Source: Actinomycetes bacterium
GTDB lineage: Bacteria; Actinomycetota; Coriobacteriia; WRKU01; WQUG01
Length of the DNA: 10,843 nt
NCBI GenBank assembly: GCA_031268615.1
Contig: JAIRWZ010000112.1
Location: 1-10,843 of the forward strand
Direction: 5' to 3'
The position numbers and the translations under genes were made by a program. The first letter of the stretch is position 1. Each line of letters begins with the position of its first letter. A model generated the notes under the pieces. That model made no database searches. It was not told the origin of the DNA and saw only the letters and a list, made by a program, of their open reading frames with translations. Shown here in pieces: positions 3,316 through 9,556 of this stretch.

Positions 3316-3362
3316 GCGGTGATGGACCCCCGGTCAAGCCGGGGGCAAGCTCACTACTCACT
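3316..3362 (+). repeat. Dispersed palindromic repeat, copy A (intergenic)
   Basis: This copy has the same order of blocks as copies B and C: GCGGTGATGGA, then the CCCCCGG/CCGGGGG palindrome arms around TCAAG, then a conserved non-palindromic flank ending ACTCACT. It lacks one A in the loop relative to the others. It ends 11 bases before the cysK -35 box. The palindrome would form a strong hairpin, but no T-run follows on either strand, so it is not a canonical terminator. Confidence 0.85.
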
Positions 3363-3373
3363 TATATTTGGTC

Positions 3374-3401
3374 TTGACACGATGGGACGCTCTGCTATAA
3401 T
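3374..3401 (+). promoter_or_regulatory. cysK promoter, perfect -35 and -10 hexamers
   Basis: TTGACA (3374-3379) and TATAAT (3396-3401) match the sigma70-type consensus exactly, with a 16-base spacer. Transcription should start near 3408, giving a leader of about 79 bases before the cysK ATG at 3487. An exact match with no activator-type weakness suggests strong expression limited by a repressor. Confidence 0.9.
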
Positions 3402-3408
3402 CATAGAA

Positions 3409-3427
3409 ACCTATAGGAATAGTAGGT
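3409..3427. promoter_or_regulatory. Possible repressor operator at the cysK transcription start
   Basis: ACCTA (3409-3413) and TAGGT (3423-3427) form an inverted repeat with a 9-base spacer; an inner palindrome CCTATAGG spans 3410-3417, followed by AATAG. The site begins at the predicted transcription start, a good place for repression. Its TAGGAAT half resembles Rrf2-family cysteine regulator boxes (CymR/IscR type), which commonly control cysK. The regulator assignment is inference from memory of that family. Confidence 0.35.
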
Positions 3428-3486
3428 GATGTACGAAGCACAAGGAAGGTTACCGCTGACACGAACGAAGAAAGAGAGGGATGGAA

Positions 3487-4422
3487 ATGACTGTCTATGT
3501 TGATGTCACCGAACTGATTGGTAACACGCCGCTATTAGAGTTGAGCGGCTATGAGAAAGTGAACGACCTGCACGCAAAAGTGGTGGCGAAGTTGGAATAC
3601 TTTAACCCGGCCGGCAGTGTGAAGGACCGTATCGCCTGGGCGATGATTGGGGACGCGGAACAGTCCGGCGCCTTGAAGCCTGGCAGCGTCATCATCGAGC
3701 CAACCAGCGGAAACACCGGCATTGGCCTGGCTGCGGTGGCAGCTGCGCGAGGCTACAAACTGGTGCTGACCATGCCGGAAACGATGAGCGTCGAGCGTCG
3801 TAACCTGTTGCGCGCCTACGGAGCGGAAATCGTGCTGACCGACGGCGCAAAAGGTATGCCGGGCGCCATTGAACGCGCTAATGAGCTGGCTGCGGAAACC
3901 CCCAACAGCTTCATTCCGGGGCAGTTCGACAACCCCGCCAATCCGCGCATTCATCATGACACGACCGGCCCGGAAATCTGGGACGCGACCGGCGGCGTCG
4001 TGGATTACCTTGTGTCGGGCATTGGCACCGGTGGCACGATTACCGGCGCGGGCGGCTATCTGAAAGAGAAAAACCCGGACGTCAAAATCATTGCTGTCGA
4101 GCCAAAAGATTCCCCGGTACTGTCCGAGGGTCGCAAAGGTCCGCATAAGATTCAAGGCATCGGCGCCGGTTTTGTGCCGAAAGTGCTGGACACCGCTATC
4201 TACGACGAAATCATTCCCGTCAGCAACGAAGCTGCTTTTGCCACGGGCAAAGAGCTGGGACGCACCGACGGCGTGCTGGTCGGCATTTCGTCGGGAGCCG
4301 CGCTGTGGGCGGCCACGCAGATTGCGCAGCGACCCGAAGCCGCGGGCAAAACCATCGTGGTCATCCTGCCCGACACTGGCGAGCGTTACCTGTCGACGGC
4401 CTTGTTCGCCGAAGACGCCTAA
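3487..4422 (+). CDS. cysK: Cysteine synthase A (O-acetylserine sulfhydrylase)
   Basis: The enzyme is a cytoplasmic PLP protein that makes L-cysteine from O-acetylserine and sulfide. The 311-residue length is typical. Family motifs are in order: [11 protein letters not shown] (9-19), NPAGSVKDR with the PLP lysine K46, the substrate-binding loop TSGNTG (73-78), [10 protein letters not shown] (97-105), the phosphate-binding GIGTGGT (178-184), and the C-terminal [10 protein letters not shown] (295-304). I start it at ATG 3487 because GAGAGGG (3474-3480) lies 6 bases upstream; an in-frame ATG at 3481 would abut that site directly. It is transcribed alone from a strong promoter with a possible operator and is followed by a terminator. 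The loop [15 protein letters not shown] (near 214-228) matches the CysK region around the active-site entrance; CysM or a cystathionine beta-synthase-like role is less likely but not excluded. Confidence 0.94.
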
Positions 4423-4440
4423 ACACTTACCCCCTTCTTT

Positions 4441-4472
4441 GGGCGCGCGGCCGCTTGCGGTGCGGTGCGCCC
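4441..4472 (+). repeat. GC-rich hairpin just after cysK
   Basis: GGGCGC (4441-4446) pairs with GCGCCC (4467-4472), extendable by a G-T and a C-G pair, with an inner CCG/CGG stem. It lies 18 bases after the cysK stop. Only TTC follows, so it is not an intrinsic terminator by itself; it may protect the mRNA 3' end or add to the terminator that follows. Confidence 0.4.
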
Positions 4473-4489
4473 TTCATATGCTGGGAAAT

Positions 4490-4520
4490 GTCCCTCTACG
4501 TCGGCGGTAGGGGGACTTTT
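4490..4520 (+). terminator. Intrinsic terminator of cysK
   Basis: GTCCCTCTAC (4490-4499) pairs with GTAGGGGGAC (4507-4516) over ten base pairs including one G-U, around a 7-base loop, and is followed by TTTT (4517-4520) and CC. AAA at 4486-4488 just upstream gives some potential to work on the opposite strand too. It lies 68 bases after cysK and separates it from mnmA. Confidence 0.75.
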
Positions 4521-4549
4521 CCTAGAGTGGATAGTATCACTAACCGGGC

Positions 4550-4584
4550 GGACACCAATCGGCACAAAACGCCGAAAGCTGTCC
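4550..4584 (+). repeat. Two-part stem-loop upstream of mnmA
   Basis: An outer stem GGACA (4550-4554) / TGTCC (4580-4584) encloses an inner stem CGGC (4560-4563) / GCCG (4571-4574) with loop ACAAAAC, separated by a symmetric five-base internal loop on each side. It is the middle of three successive hairpins between 4490 and 4615. No known RNA family is recognised. Confidence 0.3.
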
Positions 4585-4587
4585 CTA

Positions 4588-4615
4588 CACTGCTCGCCTT
4601 GTCTGGTGGGCAGTG
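4588..4615 (+). repeat. 11-bp inverted repeat upstream of mnmA
   Basis: CACTGCTCGCC (4588-4598) and GGTGGGCAGTG (4605-4615) pair over eleven positions, two of them G-U as RNA, with loop TTGTCT. No T-run follows. It ends 29 bases before the candidate mnmA -10. As DNA it could be a repressor site; as RNA it would be part of a leader if transcription starts further upstream. Confidence 0.4.
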
Positions 4616-4644
4616 GTTGCAGGTATGGACGTACTCACTTGCGT

Positions 4645-4650
4645 TATGAT
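4645..4650 (+). promoter_or_regulatory. Candidate -10 box of mnmA
   Basis: TATGAT matches five of six consensus bases. Its spacing puts the transcript start near 4657, one base before the mnmA ATG, which would give an essentially leaderless mRNA. No ribosome-binding purine run precedes that ATG, which fits. The -35 is poor: TTGCAG at 4617-4622 is 22 bases away. Confidence 0.4.
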
Positions 4651-4657
4651 GACACTC

Positions 4658-5758
4658 ATGAAAAAACGGGCGCTCATAGCGATGTCGGGCGGCGTGGACA
4701 GCTCGGTGGCCGCCGCGCTGCTGCAACGCGAGGACCTGGATTGCACCGGCGTCATGATGCGGCTGTTCGCTGACGAGACCCTCGGGATAGAGGAGGGAAG
4801 TGAGTACGTCCATGAGATGGAAAGCGGTTGCTGCTCGCTGGCCGACGCCGCCTACGCGCGCCAGGTTGCGGGGCAGCTGGACATACCATTTTATGTGTTC
4901 GACTTGAGCGAGGATTTCAGGCGTTGCGTCATTGACCGCTTTGTCGCCGCCTACGCGCGGGGAGAGACGCCCAACCCGTGTATCGACTGCAATCGTTACC
5001 TGAAGTTTGAGCAATTGATGGCGCGCGCTGCCAGTTTGGATTTCGACGTGATGGCTACCGGCCACTACGCGCGCGTGGAGTGGGATGAGGTGGCGGGACG
5101 CTGGCTGCTGCGTGCGGCTCGTGATGAGAGCAAGGACCAGAGCTACGTGCTGTACACCCTGACCCAGGCACAGCTGGCGCGTCTGCGCCTGCCTTTGGGC
5201 GACCTGTTGAAATCGGAGGTGCGCGCGTTGGCGGCGCAGTTTGGTTTTCGCAACGCGGACAAGCCGGACAGTCAAAATATCTGCTTTGTGCCCGATGGGG
5301 ACTATTCGCGCTTTATCGAGACTTGCGTGGGGCACGACTTTGAGCCGGGCGATTTTTTGGACCTTTCGGGGCAGGTCATGGGGCGTCATCAGGGAATCAT
5401 TCGCTATACGCTGGGGCAGCGCAAAGGTTTAGGCGCCTTTGGGAGGCCGGTGTATGTGTCGGCTATAGATGCGCAGACCAATACGGTAACTTTGGGGGAC
5501 GAAGACAGCTTGTATGGGCGGGAGTGTATATTGCGCGAACTGAACTGGATTGCGGGTGTGCCTGAGACGGGAATGCAGTCAGTAGAGGTAAAAATCGGCT
5601 ACCGCTGCGCGCGGCAGCCGGCTCTGGTTGAGCTAACGGATGAGGGGCGTCTGCGCGTATGCTTTGACCAGGCGCAACGTGCGATTACCCCCGGTCAGGC
5701 GGCGGTTTTGTATCAGGATGAGTATGTGCTGGGTGGCGGTACGATAGACTGCCAGTAG
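4658..5758 (+). CDS. mnmA: tRNA-uridine 2-sulfurtransferase MnmA (TrmU)
   Basis: MnmA adds sulfur to U34 of tRNA-Lys, -Glu and -Gln, taking it from a cysteine desulfurase relay. The 366-residue protein has the PP-loop ATP site MSGGVDSS (9-16), a GCCSLADA segment (58-65), NPCIDCNRYLKF (107-118), TGHYARV (134-140), KDQSYVL (159-165), and DSQNICFVPDGDY (204-216). C111 and C209 should be the catalytic pair, equivalent to E. coli C102 and C199. The C-terminal beta-barrel follows (RYTLGQRKGLG, 249-259), ending near residue 360. The start is ATG 4658, whose product MKKRALIAMSGG fits the family; an in-frame GTG at 4613 would add 15 unconserved residues. Placing cysK next door may be loose pathway clustering, since cysteine is the sulfur source, but the terminator between them argues against co-transcription. 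Confidence 0.97.
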   Translation: MKKRALIAMSGGVDSSVAAALLQREDLDCTGVMMRLFADETLGIEEGSEYVHEMESGCCSLADAAYARQVAGQLDIPFYVFDLSEDFRRCVIDRFVAAYARGETPNPCIDCNRYLKFEQLMARAASLDFDVMATGHYARVEWDEVAGRWLLRAARDESKDQSYVLYTLTQAQLARLRLPLGDLLKSEVRALAAQFGFRNADKPDSQNICFVPDGDYSRFIETCVGHDFEPGDFLDLSGQVMGRHQGIIRYTLGQRKGLGAFGRPVYVSAIDAQTNTVTLGDEDSLYGRECILRELNWIAGVPETGMQSVEVKIGYRCARQPALVELTDEGRLRVCFDQAQRAITPGQAAVLYQDEYVLGGGTIDCQ

Positions 5759-5832
5759 CGGAGGGGGAGGGGCGAAGAACGACGCTACCGCTTGTGGCTT
5801 GGAGGGCTTGTAGGGCTTGTCCTCCTTCTGCT

Positions 5833-5841
5833 TGGTATACG
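5833..5841 (+). promoter_or_regulatory. Extended -10 promoter candidate for the kinase-uvrC gene
   Basis: TGGTATACG is an extended -10 (TGn then TATACG, four of six). Transcription would begin near 5848, leaving a 21-base leader that contains the ribosome site TAGGGGG (5854-5860), 8 bases before the ATG. No good -35 is seen at the proper distance. The same TGGTATAC block occurs upstream of rapZ, which raises my trust in it. Confidence 0.45.
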
Positions 5842-5868
5842 TTCCTTATGTGGTAGGGGGCTGATATC

Positions 5869-8457
5869 ATGGGAGTCATGGAAATTCAGGACATACGTCG
5901 GTATTACCTGATGGGTGTTGTCGGAGTGGGCAAGTCCACCCTGTTGGCGCGTCTGGCAACGCGTGCGGGCATTGAGGTGAGCGCCGAGTGGCTCGACGAG
6001 ACGCCGGATGACCTGCTGGATACGCCCGACAGCTTGCCCAAGGCGCGCCGGGAAGCCCTGCAAGACTGGATTTTTGTGCAAGTGGCAAAAAAGAATCAAC
6101 AGCTATGGGATGAGGTGACCCCTACAGTTCAGGTGGTTGACCGCTCCCCTTTGGACACCTTTGCCTTTTACCCACGGGGACAGTGGCCTCATCGCGCCCG
6201 ACAGTTGCAAGACGCCCTGTCTGTACGGGAACCGCAACGTCCGCTGGCGCCTGGGGTTGTGCTGCTTTTACAGGGAGATGTGGCTGAAATCGCTGCCCGC
6301 ATGGACCCAGCGCGCGGTTACGGGGAAGCGAAACTGGCCCAGCAACAGGCAGGTTTTGACGAGCTGGCAGCCGCGCTGGAGGCACGCGGCGCTACCGTTA
6401 CCCGCATTGCCGTGGCCGGCCTGAACCCGTCCGCCGTGGAAAAGGCGGTGGTAGCCGGGATAAATGCAGCGTACCAGCCCGTGGATATGCAGGCCTTTGT
6501 GGATGGTTTGCTTGCGGGGATGGACCCCCGGTCAAAGCCGGGGGCAGGATCAGCACTTACTCCTGTGTCCGCGCAGGCGGAATTGTCGCGGCGGCTGGCA
6601 CGGGTTCCCCGTAGCCCCGGCGTGTATTTGTGGAAGGACGCGGCGGGGCGCGTGCTGTATGTGGGTAAATCCCGCAGTTTGCGCAACCGAATGCGTCAGT
6701 ATTTGAGCGGGCAGGATGGGCGTGCGCAGATTCCGCTTTTGATGGCGGAAGTGCGGGATTTTGAATATCTGGTGACGGACAGCGAACACGAGGCCTTGGT
6801 GTTGGAAATCTCGTTGATTAAGCAGCTGACCCCGCCGTTTAATGTTGACCTGCGCGATGACAAAAGCTATCCCTATCTGGCGTTGACCCTGGATGCTGCC
6901 TACCCCGCCATCAAATACACGCGCGAGAAACATCGGCCCGGCACGCGCTATTTTGGGCCGTACACCGACGCCCGTGGCGCGCGCGAGACGGTTGACACGC
7001 TGCGCCGCGTCATTCCGGTGTGCCGCGCGACCTGCCCGGAATACAAACGGGTGGCGGCGAAGGGCTTTGCGGCCGAAGCTTCGCTGAAGCGCCCCTGTTT
7101 TGACGCGCAGATTGGGCTGGGCACGGGCGTGTGTACCGGACAAATCAGCCGGGAGGACTACGCCGTCTATGTCCGGCGCGCTGCGGAGCTGCTGGAAGGT
7201 CGCGTCACGAGTCTGGAAGCCGACCTGCGCGACCAGATGGAAGCCGCCGCGTCTGACCTGAACTACGAACTGGCGGCCCGGCTACGCAACCGTCTGGACG
7301 CGCTGGGCAGCATTCGAAAACGTCAGATTTTGGTGTCGGACACGGCGGCGTCTTTCGACGTCGTGGGCTTCGCGCGCGAAGAAAACATCGCGACGGCCTA
7401 TCTGTTGATTGTGCGCGAGGGCAAGGTGCTGTATGGCAACGAGCTGACCGTGAGCGTTGGGCTGGGGATTGCGCCGGGCGAGCTGGTCGCGCAGTTTCTG
7501 GGGCAGTATTACGCCGGAGCGGGTCAGATTCCGCGCGAGATTGTCACCGAGGCCCAACCGGAGGACCGGGAACTGTTGGCAGAGTTTTTGCGCTGTCGGC
7601 GCAGTGAGCTAAGTGAGAGCGTCCATCCCAGCGGCAGGGTACATATTACCGTCCCCTTGCGGGGTCTGAAACGTCGGCTGCTGGAAATGGCGGAGCGCAA
7701 TGCCCGCCATGCCTTGCTGCGCTGGAAAGTGCGCACGCACTATGACGACGAGCGGCTGAACCGCGCGCTGCTGGAGCTGGAAAGCGCGCTGGCCTTAGAC
7801 GGCCCGCCGCTGCGGATTGAAAGTTACGACATTTCGACCTTGCATGGGACGAATTCCGTAGGCTCGATGGTGGTCTTCGGTAATGGTCTGGCCGACAAAA
7901 GCGCGTATCGTCGCTTTAAGATTCGCGGGGAATTTTCTGAAGCCAATGACGTCGCCATGATGCGCGAAGTGCTGGGACGTCGCTTTGCTTTGACCCGGAC
8001 GACCGATGAGCGCTTTGCGCGCAAGCCCGACTTGTTGCTGATTGACGGCGGCAAGCCGCAGCTGCACGCGACGCTCGACATTCTGGCAGAGCTGGGGGTT
8101 AAGGGCGTGGCCGTCGCTGGCCTGGCCAAGCGCGAAGAGGAGCTATGGACTGCGTGGTCGGATGGGCCGGTAGTGCTGGCCGACGGTTCCCCGGCGCTGT
8201 ATCTGGTGAAGCGAATTCGCGACGAAGCCCATCGTTTCGCCATCGAGTACCATCGCAAGCTGCGCAGTAAGGCCATGACCGCCAGCGTTTTGGATGAGGT
8301 GGTAGGTATCGGACCCGTGCGTCGGCGTGCGCTTATCAAGCATTTCGGAGGTATGCGCCGTCTGCGCGAAGCCGACGAGGGGCAGATTGCCGCCGCGCCC
8401 GGCATTACGCCGCAAATAGCGGCCGACATCTACGGGATACTGCACCTGCCGTCGTAA
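5869..8457 (+). CDS. uvrC: P-loop kinase-like domain fused to excinuclease UvrC
   Basis: UvrC makes both incisions around a DNA lesion in nucleotide excision repair, with UvrA and UvrB. Residues 1-215 form an unrelated P-loop domain: Walker A GVVGVGKS (16-23), a VVDRSP motif (89-94) as in deoxynucleoside and thymidylate kinases, and a lid-like RMDPARGYGEAKL (144-156). Residues 216-232 are encoded exactly by dispersed repeat copy B. From 233 a full UvrC follows: GIY-YIG nuclease (Y253, Y264, R274, E308), a cysteine segment (C385, C389, C410, C422), a UVR helix pair (about 449-484), the RNase H-like nuclease (D654, D694, D726, H788) and tandem HhH (about 806-860). The 630-residue UvrC part matches a normal whole protein, so the kinase is an addition. 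The start ATG 5869 has a ribosome site at 5854-5860. UvrC alone could also start at ATG 6520 or GTG 6565, though neither has a strong ribosome site. The kinase substrate is unknown. Confidence 0.93.
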   Translation: MGVMEIQDIRRYYLMGVVGVGKSTLLARLATRAGIEVSAEWLDETPDDLLDTPDSLPKARREALQDWIFVQVAKKNQQLWDEVTPTVQVVDRSPLDTFAFYPRGQWPHRARQLQDALSVREPQRPLAPGVVLLLQGDVAEIAARMDPARGYGEAKLAQQQAGFDELAAALEARGATVTRIAVAGLNPSAVEKAVVAGINAAYQPVDMQAFVDGLLAGMDPRSKPGAGSALTPVSAQAELSRRLARVPRSPGVYLWKDAAGRVLYVGKSRSLRNRMRQYLSGQDGRAQIPLLMAEVRDFEYLVTDSEHEALVLEISLIKQLTPPFNVDLRDDKSYPYLALTLDAAYPAIKYTREKHRPGTRYFGPYTDARGARETVDTLRRVIPVCRATCPEYKRVAAKGFAAEASLKRPCFDAQIGLGTGVCTGQISREDYAVYVRRAAELLEGRVTSLEADLRDQMEAAASDLNYELAARLRNRLDALGSIRKRQILVSDTAASFDVVGFAREENIATAYLLIVREGKVLYGNELTVSVGLGIAPGELVAQFLGQYYAGAGQIPREIVTEAQPEDRELLAEFLRCRRSELSESVHPSGRVHITVPLRGLKRRLLEMAERNARHALLRWKVRTHYDDERLNRALLELESALALDGPPLRIESYDISTLHGTNSVGSMVVFGNGLADKSAYRRFKIRGEFSEANDVAMMREVLGRRFALTRTTDERFARKPDLLLIDGGKPQLHATLDILAELGVKGVAVAGLAKREEELWTAWSDGPVVLADGSPALYLVKRIRDEAHRFAIEYHRKLRSKAMTASVLDEVVGIGPVRRRALIKHFGGMRRLREADEGQIAAAPGITPQIAADIYGILHLPS
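6514..6564 (+). repeat. Dispersed palindromic repeat, copy B (in frame inside kinase-uvrC)
   Basis: This 51-base copy fits exactly 17 codons (residues 216-232), encoding AGMDPRSKPGAGSALTP with no stop, and lies at the seam between the kinase domain and UvrC. The palindrome arms CCCCCGG and CCGGGGG are perfect around TCAAAG. The flanks GCGGGGATGGA and ACTTACTCCT match copy A or C. Its codons are unlike conserved UvrC sequence and look like an inserted linker. Confidence 0.9.
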
Positions 8458-8478
8458 GGACGCACTCGCTCATTTCTC

Positions 8479-8487
8479 TGGTATACT
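8479..8487 (+). promoter_or_regulatory. Extended -10 promoter of rapZ, predicted leaderless transcript
   Basis: TGGTATACT is an extended -10: TGn followed by TATACT, five of six consensus bases. Counting seven bases past the hexamer puts +1 at 8494, the A of the rapZ ATG. No purine-rich ribosome site exists between the uvrC stop (8457) and this ATG, which fits leaderless translation. The -35 region (about 8459-8464) is poor, as is usual for extended -10 promoters. Confidence 0.55.
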
Positions 8488-8493
8488 CGAACT

Positions 8494-9492
8494 ATGGATA
8501 CGCCCGGCACTAATACGACACCCTGCGACACTACGGACACCACGCCCAGCGTCCTCCCGCCCACGCCCGACGACGCCCTCACGCCCACGCCTGACAGCGC
8601 TACCGCCTCTGCACTCAGCGACCCTCGCTTGGTGATTGTCACCGGCATGTCGGGGGCGGGGCGGTCCCGCGCGCTGGCGGCGCTGGAGGACTTCGGCTAT
8701 TTCTGCGTTGACAACCTGCCGCCGCAGATGATTCCCCAGGTCGCAAAGCTGACCGAAATCGACGACCCGCACTTTGCCCGTGTTGCCGTGGCCTGCGACA
8801 TCCGCGGGGGAGAGCTGTTCGATTCGCTGTTAGATATCTTAAACGACCCTGATCAGGTCGTGCCCTATACCCTGCTCTATCTGGACGCCAACGACGCGGT
8901 ACTCATCAACCGCTACAAAGAAAACCGTCGTCGCCACCCGCTGGAAGACAATCGCACGATTTTGAAACGCGCCATCGAAATCGAGCGCGGGGTGTTGGAG
9001 CCGATTCGCGCGTCCGCTGACCTGGTCATCGACACCTCGCGCCTGCGCGCCTCCGAGCTGCGCGCCCGCATCAAATCCGACTTTATCGGCCAGCGTGACG
9101 ACGCGCAGTTGACCGTCATTGTGACTTCATTTGGCTTCAAATACGGTATGCAAGCCGACGCCGACATCGTCTTTGACGTGCGGTTTCTGCCGAATCCCTA
9201 CTGGGACCCGGACCTGCGCCCGCTCTCTGGCCGCGACGCCGCCATCAGCCAGTTCGTGCTGTCGCGTCCCGAAACGCAGTCCTTTCTGGCGCGCTGGACC
9301 GACCTGTTGACCGACACGCTGCCGCGCTATCTGGCCGAAGGCAAGCTGTCCATCACCGTGGCCCTGGGTTGCACGGGCGGGCGCCACCGCAGCGTCACGC
9401 TGGCCGAAGAAACGGCGCGCCGCCTGAAGTTGGCGGGCTACGCCACCCATGTGGTCCATCGCGATATCGACCGCGACCCCGTAAATGTGTAG
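8494..9492 (+). CDS. rapZ: RapZ/YvcJ family nucleotide-binding protein
   Basis: RapZ-type proteins bind nucleotides; in E. coli RapZ steers decay of the GlmZ small RNA to control glucosamine-6-phosphate synthase, while YvcJ of Bacillus is a GTPase linked to competence. Residues 46-70 carry LVIVTGMSGAGRSRALAALE, with Walker A GMSGAGRS (51-58). The arginine in place of lysine is what I recall in actinobacterial members. VDNLPPQMI (70-78), DLVIDTSRL, FGFKYGMQADADIVFDVRF with LPNPYW, and the C-terminal signature GCTGGRHRSV complete the family pattern. At 332 residues it is about 40 longer than usual because of a Thr/Pro/Asp-rich, low-complexity N-terminus (1-43) that no family motif requires. The ATG at 8494 is supported by the promoter position rather than by a ribosome site; if wrong, the start would lie nearer residue 40. 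It is followed closely by yvcK. Confidence 0.93.
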   Translation: MDTPGTNTTPCDTTDTTPSVLPPTPDDALTPTPDSATASALSDPRLVIVTGMSGAGRSRALAALEDFGYFCVDNLPPQMIPQVAKLTEIDDPHFARVAVACDIRGGELFDSLLDILNDPDQVVPYTLLYLDANDAVLINRYKENRRRHPLEDNRTILKRAIEIERGVLEPIRASADLVIDTSRLRASELRARIKSDFIGQRDDAQLTVIVTSFGFKYGMQADADIVFDVRFLPNPYWDPDLRPLSGRDAAISQFVLSRPETQSFLARWTDLLTDTLPRYLAEGKLSITVALGCTGGRHRSVTLAEETARRLKLAGYATHVVHRDIDRDPVNV

Positions 9493-9503
9493 GAAGGACG
9501 AGA

Positions 9504-9556
9504 AGGAGTGAGTATTGAGCCTGCTCCCGGCTTTGACCGGGGGTCCATCCCCCCGC
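9504..9556 (-). repeat. Dispersed palindromic repeat, copy C (inverted, over the yvcK start)
   Basis: Read on the minus strand it matches copy B: GATGGACCCCCGG, TCAAAG, CCGGGAGCAGG, then CTCAATACTCACTCCT. Two extra C residues lie near its outer end, and one arm base differs (GGGAG). On the plus strand it carries AGGAG and GTG, so it provides the likely yvcK start codon and first 14 codons, again without a stop. Confidence 0.88.

Follow-up and report, generated by a model that had tools for sequence, protein, structure and literature searches.

The subject of this analysis is a stretch of 10,843 nucleotides (hereafter the window), contig JAIRWZ010000112.1 of a draft genome from the class Coriobacteriia (GCA_031268615.1), and two repeats found in it, a hairpin element of about 50 bp (L) and a commoner short motif (S). 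Each hairpin sits between the halves of S, GCAGGTATGGAC and GTACTCACTTC, and the short motif had been overlooked in an earlier note on this DNA. Judging from genome sequences, we consider it probable, at about two chances in three, that S is a DNA uptake sequence of a Coriobacteriia family, which would make it the third such system and the first outside Proteobacteria. S is restricted to the family, strand-neutral, dialect-bearing and largely born by substitution, and it is present in hundreds of copies in hosts that have parts of an uptake apparatus. A fuller proposition, which we favour with somewhat less confidence, is that this would be a third independent origin of self-recognition through uptake sequences, without precedent either outside Proteobacteria or in connection with Flp/Tad pili, with dialects at the level of genera and with a mobile hairpin colonising the uptake sequences in the window's species.

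The genome to which the window belongs (G000, the own genome in what follows) is a draft of 1,067,089 bases in 157 contigs, 62% complete, and all whole-genome counts were obtained by pattern searches of the genome assemblies. S is a motif of 16 to 22 bases, GCAGGTATGGACGTACTCACTTC, with the core TGGACGTACTCAC. The pattern TATGGACGTACTCACT matched the own genome 321 times at up to 2 mismatches, compared to 0 matches of the reversed-pattern control, and an overlapping 16-mer of S gave 276 matches, compared to 2 for the control. With 159 forward and 162 reverse matches, S showed no orientation bias there, an exception being one variant in the relative G006, to which we return below. A sample of 20 own contigs (223 kb), chosen for hits so that densities and fractions drawn from it are biased, contained the 13-mer TGGACGTACTCAC in 42 exact, 38 one-mismatch and 21 two-mismatch copies, with control counts of 0, 0 and 0. 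Viral contigs held no exact match to a 19-mer of S, and named genomes held a single exact match to a 20-mer (uncultured Marinobacterium), which is about what chance would give by our own estimate, near relatives of the window possibly having been excluded from that search.

The distribution of S among relatives was taken from counts of the 11-mer TGGACGTACTC in 99 genomes. It occurred 223 times in the own genome (control 1), and within the family 87 times in G006 (control 1), 54 in G001 (0), 17 in G004 (1), 8 in G005 (0), 7 in G003 (1), 7 in G008 (2), and once each in G002 (3) and G007 (1). The 90 genomes outside the family had 0 to 4 occurrences (controls 0 to 8). Variants of the motif were distributed differently. 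TGGACGCACTCC was counted 175 times in G006 (control 0), 36 in G001 (1), 10 in G004 (0), 8 in G008 (0), 5 in G005 (0) and 3 in the own genome (1), and TGGACAGACTCC 64 times in G001 (control 0), 9 in G008 (0), 8 in G006 (1), 3 each in G003 and G004, and 0 in the own genome. A blind k-mer count of genome stretches recovered the motif and its variants in G000, G001 and G006, with other centres preferred in the latter two, and nothing motif-like in the stretches of G003. The G006 stretches (C16, C17, C29 and parts of C1, C2 and C4) were chosen partly for hits, and most of those of G001 and G003 were taken by contig number. When sites were preselected by the frame TGGAC-CTC, so that the frame itself stands at 100% by construction, GC-G was favoured at positions -7 to -4 in all three genomes, most weakly in G001 (43, 50 and 41%), and the frame was followed downstream by ACT in the own genome and mostly by C-CC in G006 and G001. 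A switch of dialect at a homologous position was seen in 3 of 13 aligned sites taken from G001 to G006, and the same three appeared among 14 in the reverse direction (for instance GEYVHIP / GEHVHLP). As read from these sequences, the family shares a single motif, which varies in dialect and is retained patchily.

The window itself contains the following copies of S.

4619..4640, + strand: S, full consensus GCAGGTATGGACGTACTCACTT, upstream of mnmA
4799..4814, - strand: S with 1 mismatch, within mnmA (SEYVHE), at a loop whose length varies
7612..7627, - strand: weak S-like site with 3 mismatches, inside uvrC (SESVHP), where homologs have a one-residue gap

The position of the weak site was read directly from the window sequence. 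In MnmA homologs from metagenomes, that variable loop held peptides that match (P0002 SECVQT, P0003 GEYVHD), a likeness at the protein level. The MnmA comparison included 12 of 120 listed proteins, and that of UvrC 29 of 120 listed.

Comparison with orthologs covered 43 of 108 in-gene sites, with orthologs drawn from four genome samples and with genes called, here and in the placement counts below, by a simple codon-usage script. The site was gap-free in at least one ortholog in 29 of these 43 (G000 2/5, G001 10/17, G006 17/21), and 33 of 49 individual comparisons at in-gene sites of G000, G001 and G006 were gap-free. Identity was 0.40 at the sites and 0.55 in control windows, and a count at the level of bases found 64 of 92 aligned, the other 28 being gapped or unaligned. 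When own proteins were compared with solved structures, GatB, HdrB, MetY and peptidyl-tRNA hydrolase (Pth) were gap-free at the site. Because in-gene alignments are mostly gap-free, S appears to arise largely by point change, and we rejected S as an inserted element on the strength of these orthologs and structures, although the gapped cases among own sites and in PurL count to the contrary; a share of the sites in variable loops and linkers may be insertions. HdrB is also one half of an apparent fusion with HdrC in a single reading frame (L116, 2820-4136), in which both subunits were matched in order.

The hairpin element was the subject of the earlier note, and its three palindromic copies of about 50 bp lie where that note had placed them.

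3316..3363, + strand: L copy A, intergenic before cysK; loop one base shorter than in most copies; 8-bp stem, folding z-score -2.17
6514..6564, + strand: L copy B, translated in frame (GMDPRSKPGAGSALT), where it links an AAA_28 domain to UvrC
9504..9556, - strand: L copy C, in the gap that separates rapZ from yvcK; should YvcK start at 9508, the copy is read as its N-terminal extension
5869..8457, + strand: AAA_28 and UvrC in a single reading frame, with hairpin copy B at the junction

The core ATGGACCCCCGGTCAA, searched at up to 3 mismatches, had 3 occurrences in the window, all of them exact, a number reached in none of 200 dinucleotide shuffles; copies B and C form a 49-nt inverted repeat pairing at 90%. 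Genome-wide, a 28-base pattern with up to 3 mismatches found L at 34 places, 19 of them forward and 15 reverse, with a reversed-pattern control of 0. The genome-wide count with its control and the shuffle test led us to reject chance GC palindromes, as the earlier note had done, and its picture of a dispersed hairpin with a conserved tail, in both orientations and multiplied through the genome, is borne out by the same scan. The scarcity of further copies that the note had named as grounds for refutation was not observed. A looser scan of the own-genome sequence sample gave 47 distinct contexts, 1 of them a spurious GC-rich stretch (so up to 46), and S is therefore about 7 to 10 times commoner than L (321 vs 34, or up to 46, at thresholds that differ). 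Aligned copies yielded one consensus, GGTATGGAC-CCCCGGTCAAAGCCGGGGGCAGGCTCA-GTACTCACTTC, nearly uniform at unrelated places, whose outer ends GGTATGGAC and GTACTCACTTC also occur directly fused as GGTATGGACGTACTCACTTC, which is S. A copy may adjoin a complete S or stand twice in tandem before one (stretches L008 and L016). Outside predicted genes lay 16 of 23 sampled copies, and the other 7 overlapped genes, several only at uncertain starts; in the window, the location of copies in reading frames, as proposed earlier, holds for the UvrC linker and possibly for the YvcK N-terminus, copy A being intergenic.

Copy B looks inserted in the UvrC frame, because the listed UvrC homologs have no counterpart of the fused part and linker: the other 119 on the list (4,294 were found) have lengths of 572-661 aa, too short for a fused AAA_28 part. 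Near UvrC homologs mostly bear the name 'Coriobacteriia bacterium', in line with the class to which we assign the organism. Another copy lies at the N-terminus of an ABC ATPase, where a relative shows an eight-residue gap. In G001 an AAA_28 protein stands alone (L163:13522-14130) and is not followed by UvrC on its contig. L had no match in 38 of 38 other genomes (43-mer, up to 3 mismatches), the same pattern finding 22 copies in the own genome, and no plasmid relative of L was found. Folding z-scores of copies A, B and C were -2.17, -0.44 and -0.41, with the best fold of C differing from the expected hairpin, so that hairpin stability is weak evidence. No Rfam family matched in the window at gathering scores, and a known RNA family was rejected for that reason. 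The Y1 (IS200-like) transposase family PF01797 (Y1_Tnp) had 0 matches in the 62%-complete own genome, while the control was positive in 5 of 14 known genomes; the transposase of the REP-associated tyrosine transposase (RAYT) type that had been suggested was thus not seen, and a RAYT-type repetitive extragenic palindromic (REP) element was rejected as the whole story. The comparison with REP or Rickettsia palindromic elements (RPE) made in the earlier note suits the form of L, but the hairpin as the primary repeat is not supported, its ends being halves of the commoner short motif, which behaves as an uptake sequence would rather than as a transposed element. From the sequences we take L to be a separate, copied, REP-like and non-autonomous unit that either has S ends of its own or inserts at S sites, and an enzyme working in trans would have copied it to 34 places or more. 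L itself is probably no uptake tag, because the hairpin splits the core of S.

Other repeats were seen in the relatives. G006 has a hairpin repeat of a different kind, CCCCGCATCAAGTGCGGGG, whose flanks are conserved (e.g. L174:17812, L175:2593), and the 16-mer CCCGCATCAAGTGCGG taken from it had 8 exact matches in 395 kb; no common hairpin was found inside the split motif frames of G006. Stretches L154, L158 and L160 of G001 contain repeats such as CCCCATGCCCAGAGCG that recur across several contigs, frequently at intervals of about 153 bases, and a reading frame at the end of L163 suggests coding repeats, presumably RCC1-like.

The common ends of L and S raise the possibility that both belong to one mobile palindromic family, resembling REP elements, RPE or miniature inverted-repeat transposable elements (MITE), in which L is the intact form and S a scar that remains once the hairpin has been precisely lost. 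Near-identical copies of L at unrelated sites, seemingly inserted in the UvrC linker and at the ABC ATPase N-terminus, fit such a family, as do 3 of the 5 own in-gene S sites compared, which were gapped in every comparison. However, a scar that is seven to ten times commoner than its source, in-gene sites of S that are mostly gap-free and in some cases in conserved domains, the many dialect copies in G006 and G001, where the 43-mer search found no L, and the lack of a Y1 transposase match in the own draft all speak against it. We regard this origin as rather unlikely overall; gap-free alignments disfavour it for S, and a mobile repeat stands as the reading of L.

The placement of S on the chromosome bears on two further explanations. 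S favours intergenic DNA, since only 26 of 80 own sites lay fully in genes while 85% of the sequence is coding, and 12 of these 26 were on the strand of the gene. Sites fully in genes numbered 36 of 51 in G001 and 46 of 83 in G006, the coding fraction being 85-89% across samples. Spacings below 500 bases were rarer than an exponential expectation in all three samples (0.075 vs 0.178, 0.10 vs 0.166 and 0.014 vs 0.13), as compared without a significance test. A strand-neutral, dispersed motif with few short spacings, found both between and within genes, is what could be expected of a binding site for a nucleoid-structuring or chromosome-maintenance protein, selected for its spacing. For such a site, a change of dialect between genera, hundreds of near-exact copies of 13-20 bp and a patchy presence would be unusual, and motifs that are read by orientation, such as KOPS and Chi, would show a strand bias; we therefore consider it unlikely. 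That S serves chiefly as a signal in mRNA or for translation, offering in reverse GGAGTGAG and then ATG, or a TGA stop, is very improbable, for although the TGA stop of a predicted gene falls at the same motif position in 8 of the 80 own sites (e.g. L109 7385, L125 5273, L128 1834) and some sites lie at predicted starts, the equal orientations already disfavour it, about a third of the sites are fully in genes with no preferred strand, and dialects alter the middle bases.

Parts of an uptake apparatus were found in the family, with the names ComEA-like, TadA and TadZ assigned from Pfam matches. ComEC was present in 13 of 14 genomes searched, the own genome included, and DprA in 8 of 9. In G006 a ComEA-like gene (SLBB and HHH_3 domains) is followed by comEC, and a ComEA-like gene was seen in G006 only. 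G001 has a Tad-type cluster of CpaB-like, TadA-like and two T2SSF (TadB/TadC-like) genes, together with a small protein whose Flp1-like match is below the cut-off, and the own genome has TadZ-like and TadA-like genes side by side. No N_methyl pilins were found in six family genomes searched, and an ATPase was therefore traced to the Tad-type locus in G001.

We infer that S directs DNA uptake. In the mechanism we propose, a surface DNA receptor belonging to a machine of Flp/Tad pilus and ComEA/ComEC would bind S, fragments bearing S would be imported and recombined more often, and S would accumulate by point substitution wherever the sequence is free to vary. L would be a REP-like unit of 50 bp in which the halves of S flank a GC-rich hairpin, and it would be copied in trans and perhaps land in S sites. 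If this is true, sequence-tagged transformation has evolved repeatedly and has reached Actinomycetota and another kind of pilus. It would also provide a comparative set for asking why tags evolve and how receptors coevolve with them, and it predicts natural competence of this family, seen here only as draft genomes.

Several observations weigh against an uptake sequence. The density of S, 0.30 per kb, is below that of the Haemophilus sequence (1471 copies reported in PMC1939737), and close inverted pairs are few: 6 in the own sample, where 2.3 close pairs of any kind are expected, 2 vs 2.2 in G001, and 3 vs 1.8 in G006. One-mismatch copies outnumber exact ones for the 16-mer of the own genome (31 vs 18) and for the 12-mers of G006 (65 vs 47) and G001 (32 vs 19), and the excess of exact copies is limited to the own 13-mer, partly because dialect variants lie one step apart. 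The trait is patchy, since G002 and G007 lack the motif and G003 and G008 barely have it, yet all four have ComEC, and DprA was not found in the own genome, which is incomplete. Between the own genome and G001 or G006, none of 16 aligned pairs carried the motif in both. At the in-gene sites, 16 of 49 comparisons were gapped, compared to 12.6% in control windows, and only 2 of 5 own sites were gap-free in any ortholog. Against solved structures, PurL showed a five-residue insertion at the site, an acyl-CoA synthetase had a gap of one residue directly behind the site, and one of the seven own proteins tried had no match among these structures. Additionally, TGGACGTACTC in G006 is distributed 61/26 on the + and - strands of contigs, while TGGACGCACTCC there is 76/99. 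GTA and GCA centres in the G006 sample (L174-L193) likewise differed by strand (Fisher p 3.7e-5), where the strand of a contig should be arbitrary.

Among known systems, L resembles the REP elements associated with RAYT and the Rickettsia palindromic elements in being a short palindrome with a conserved tail, found in both orientations, for the most part between genes and at times within reading frames. Unlike REP/RAYT, it has ends that are halves of S, it was not seen in relatives, and no Y1 transposase was found with it in the incomplete own genome.

As for the uptake machine, PMC4322843 describes transformation of Micrococcus luteus by means of comEA/comEC and Flp pili, and comEA/comEC and tad genes are the likely uptake machine there as in this family; the main text of that paper, however, never uses the term 'uptake sequence'. 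Among the titles and abstract openings listed, with subscription literature mostly outside their scope, none reported uptake sequences in Actinobacteria, and a screen of Veillonella is reported to have found no sequence of at least 10 bp present 100 times (PMC5397411). According to a statement of October 2025 (PMC12616744), uptake sequences are known only from Neisseriaceae and Pasteurellaceae. Those of Pasteurellaceae (uptake signal sequences, USS) and Neisseriaceae (DNA uptake sequences, DUS) are described as lying 65% and 35% within open reading frames, above expectation in non-coding DNA, with no orientation bias, about 10% as inverted repeats, and even spacing (PMC1939737), and USS as arising by point mutation in homologous genes (PMC1939737; PMC1626085). 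S differs from the Pasteurellaceae USS in its unrelated sequence and host, and in the excess of exact over one-mismatch copies, which is clear in Haemophilus (1471 vs 764, as given in PMC1939737) and holds here for one core (42 vs 38); it shares with them an apparent origin by point mutation, the lack of orientation bias and the excess in non-coding DNA. Compared to the DUS of Neisseriaceae, whose dialects are said to keep a fixed core and to follow phylogeny (PMC3630211), S is unrelated in sequence, longer (about 20 bp) and lower in density, has few inverted pairs, and belongs to an actinobacterial class with Tad-type genes. It is like the DUS, as these are described in PMC3630211, in being short, high in copy number, varied in dialects around a core, and placed both in and between genes.

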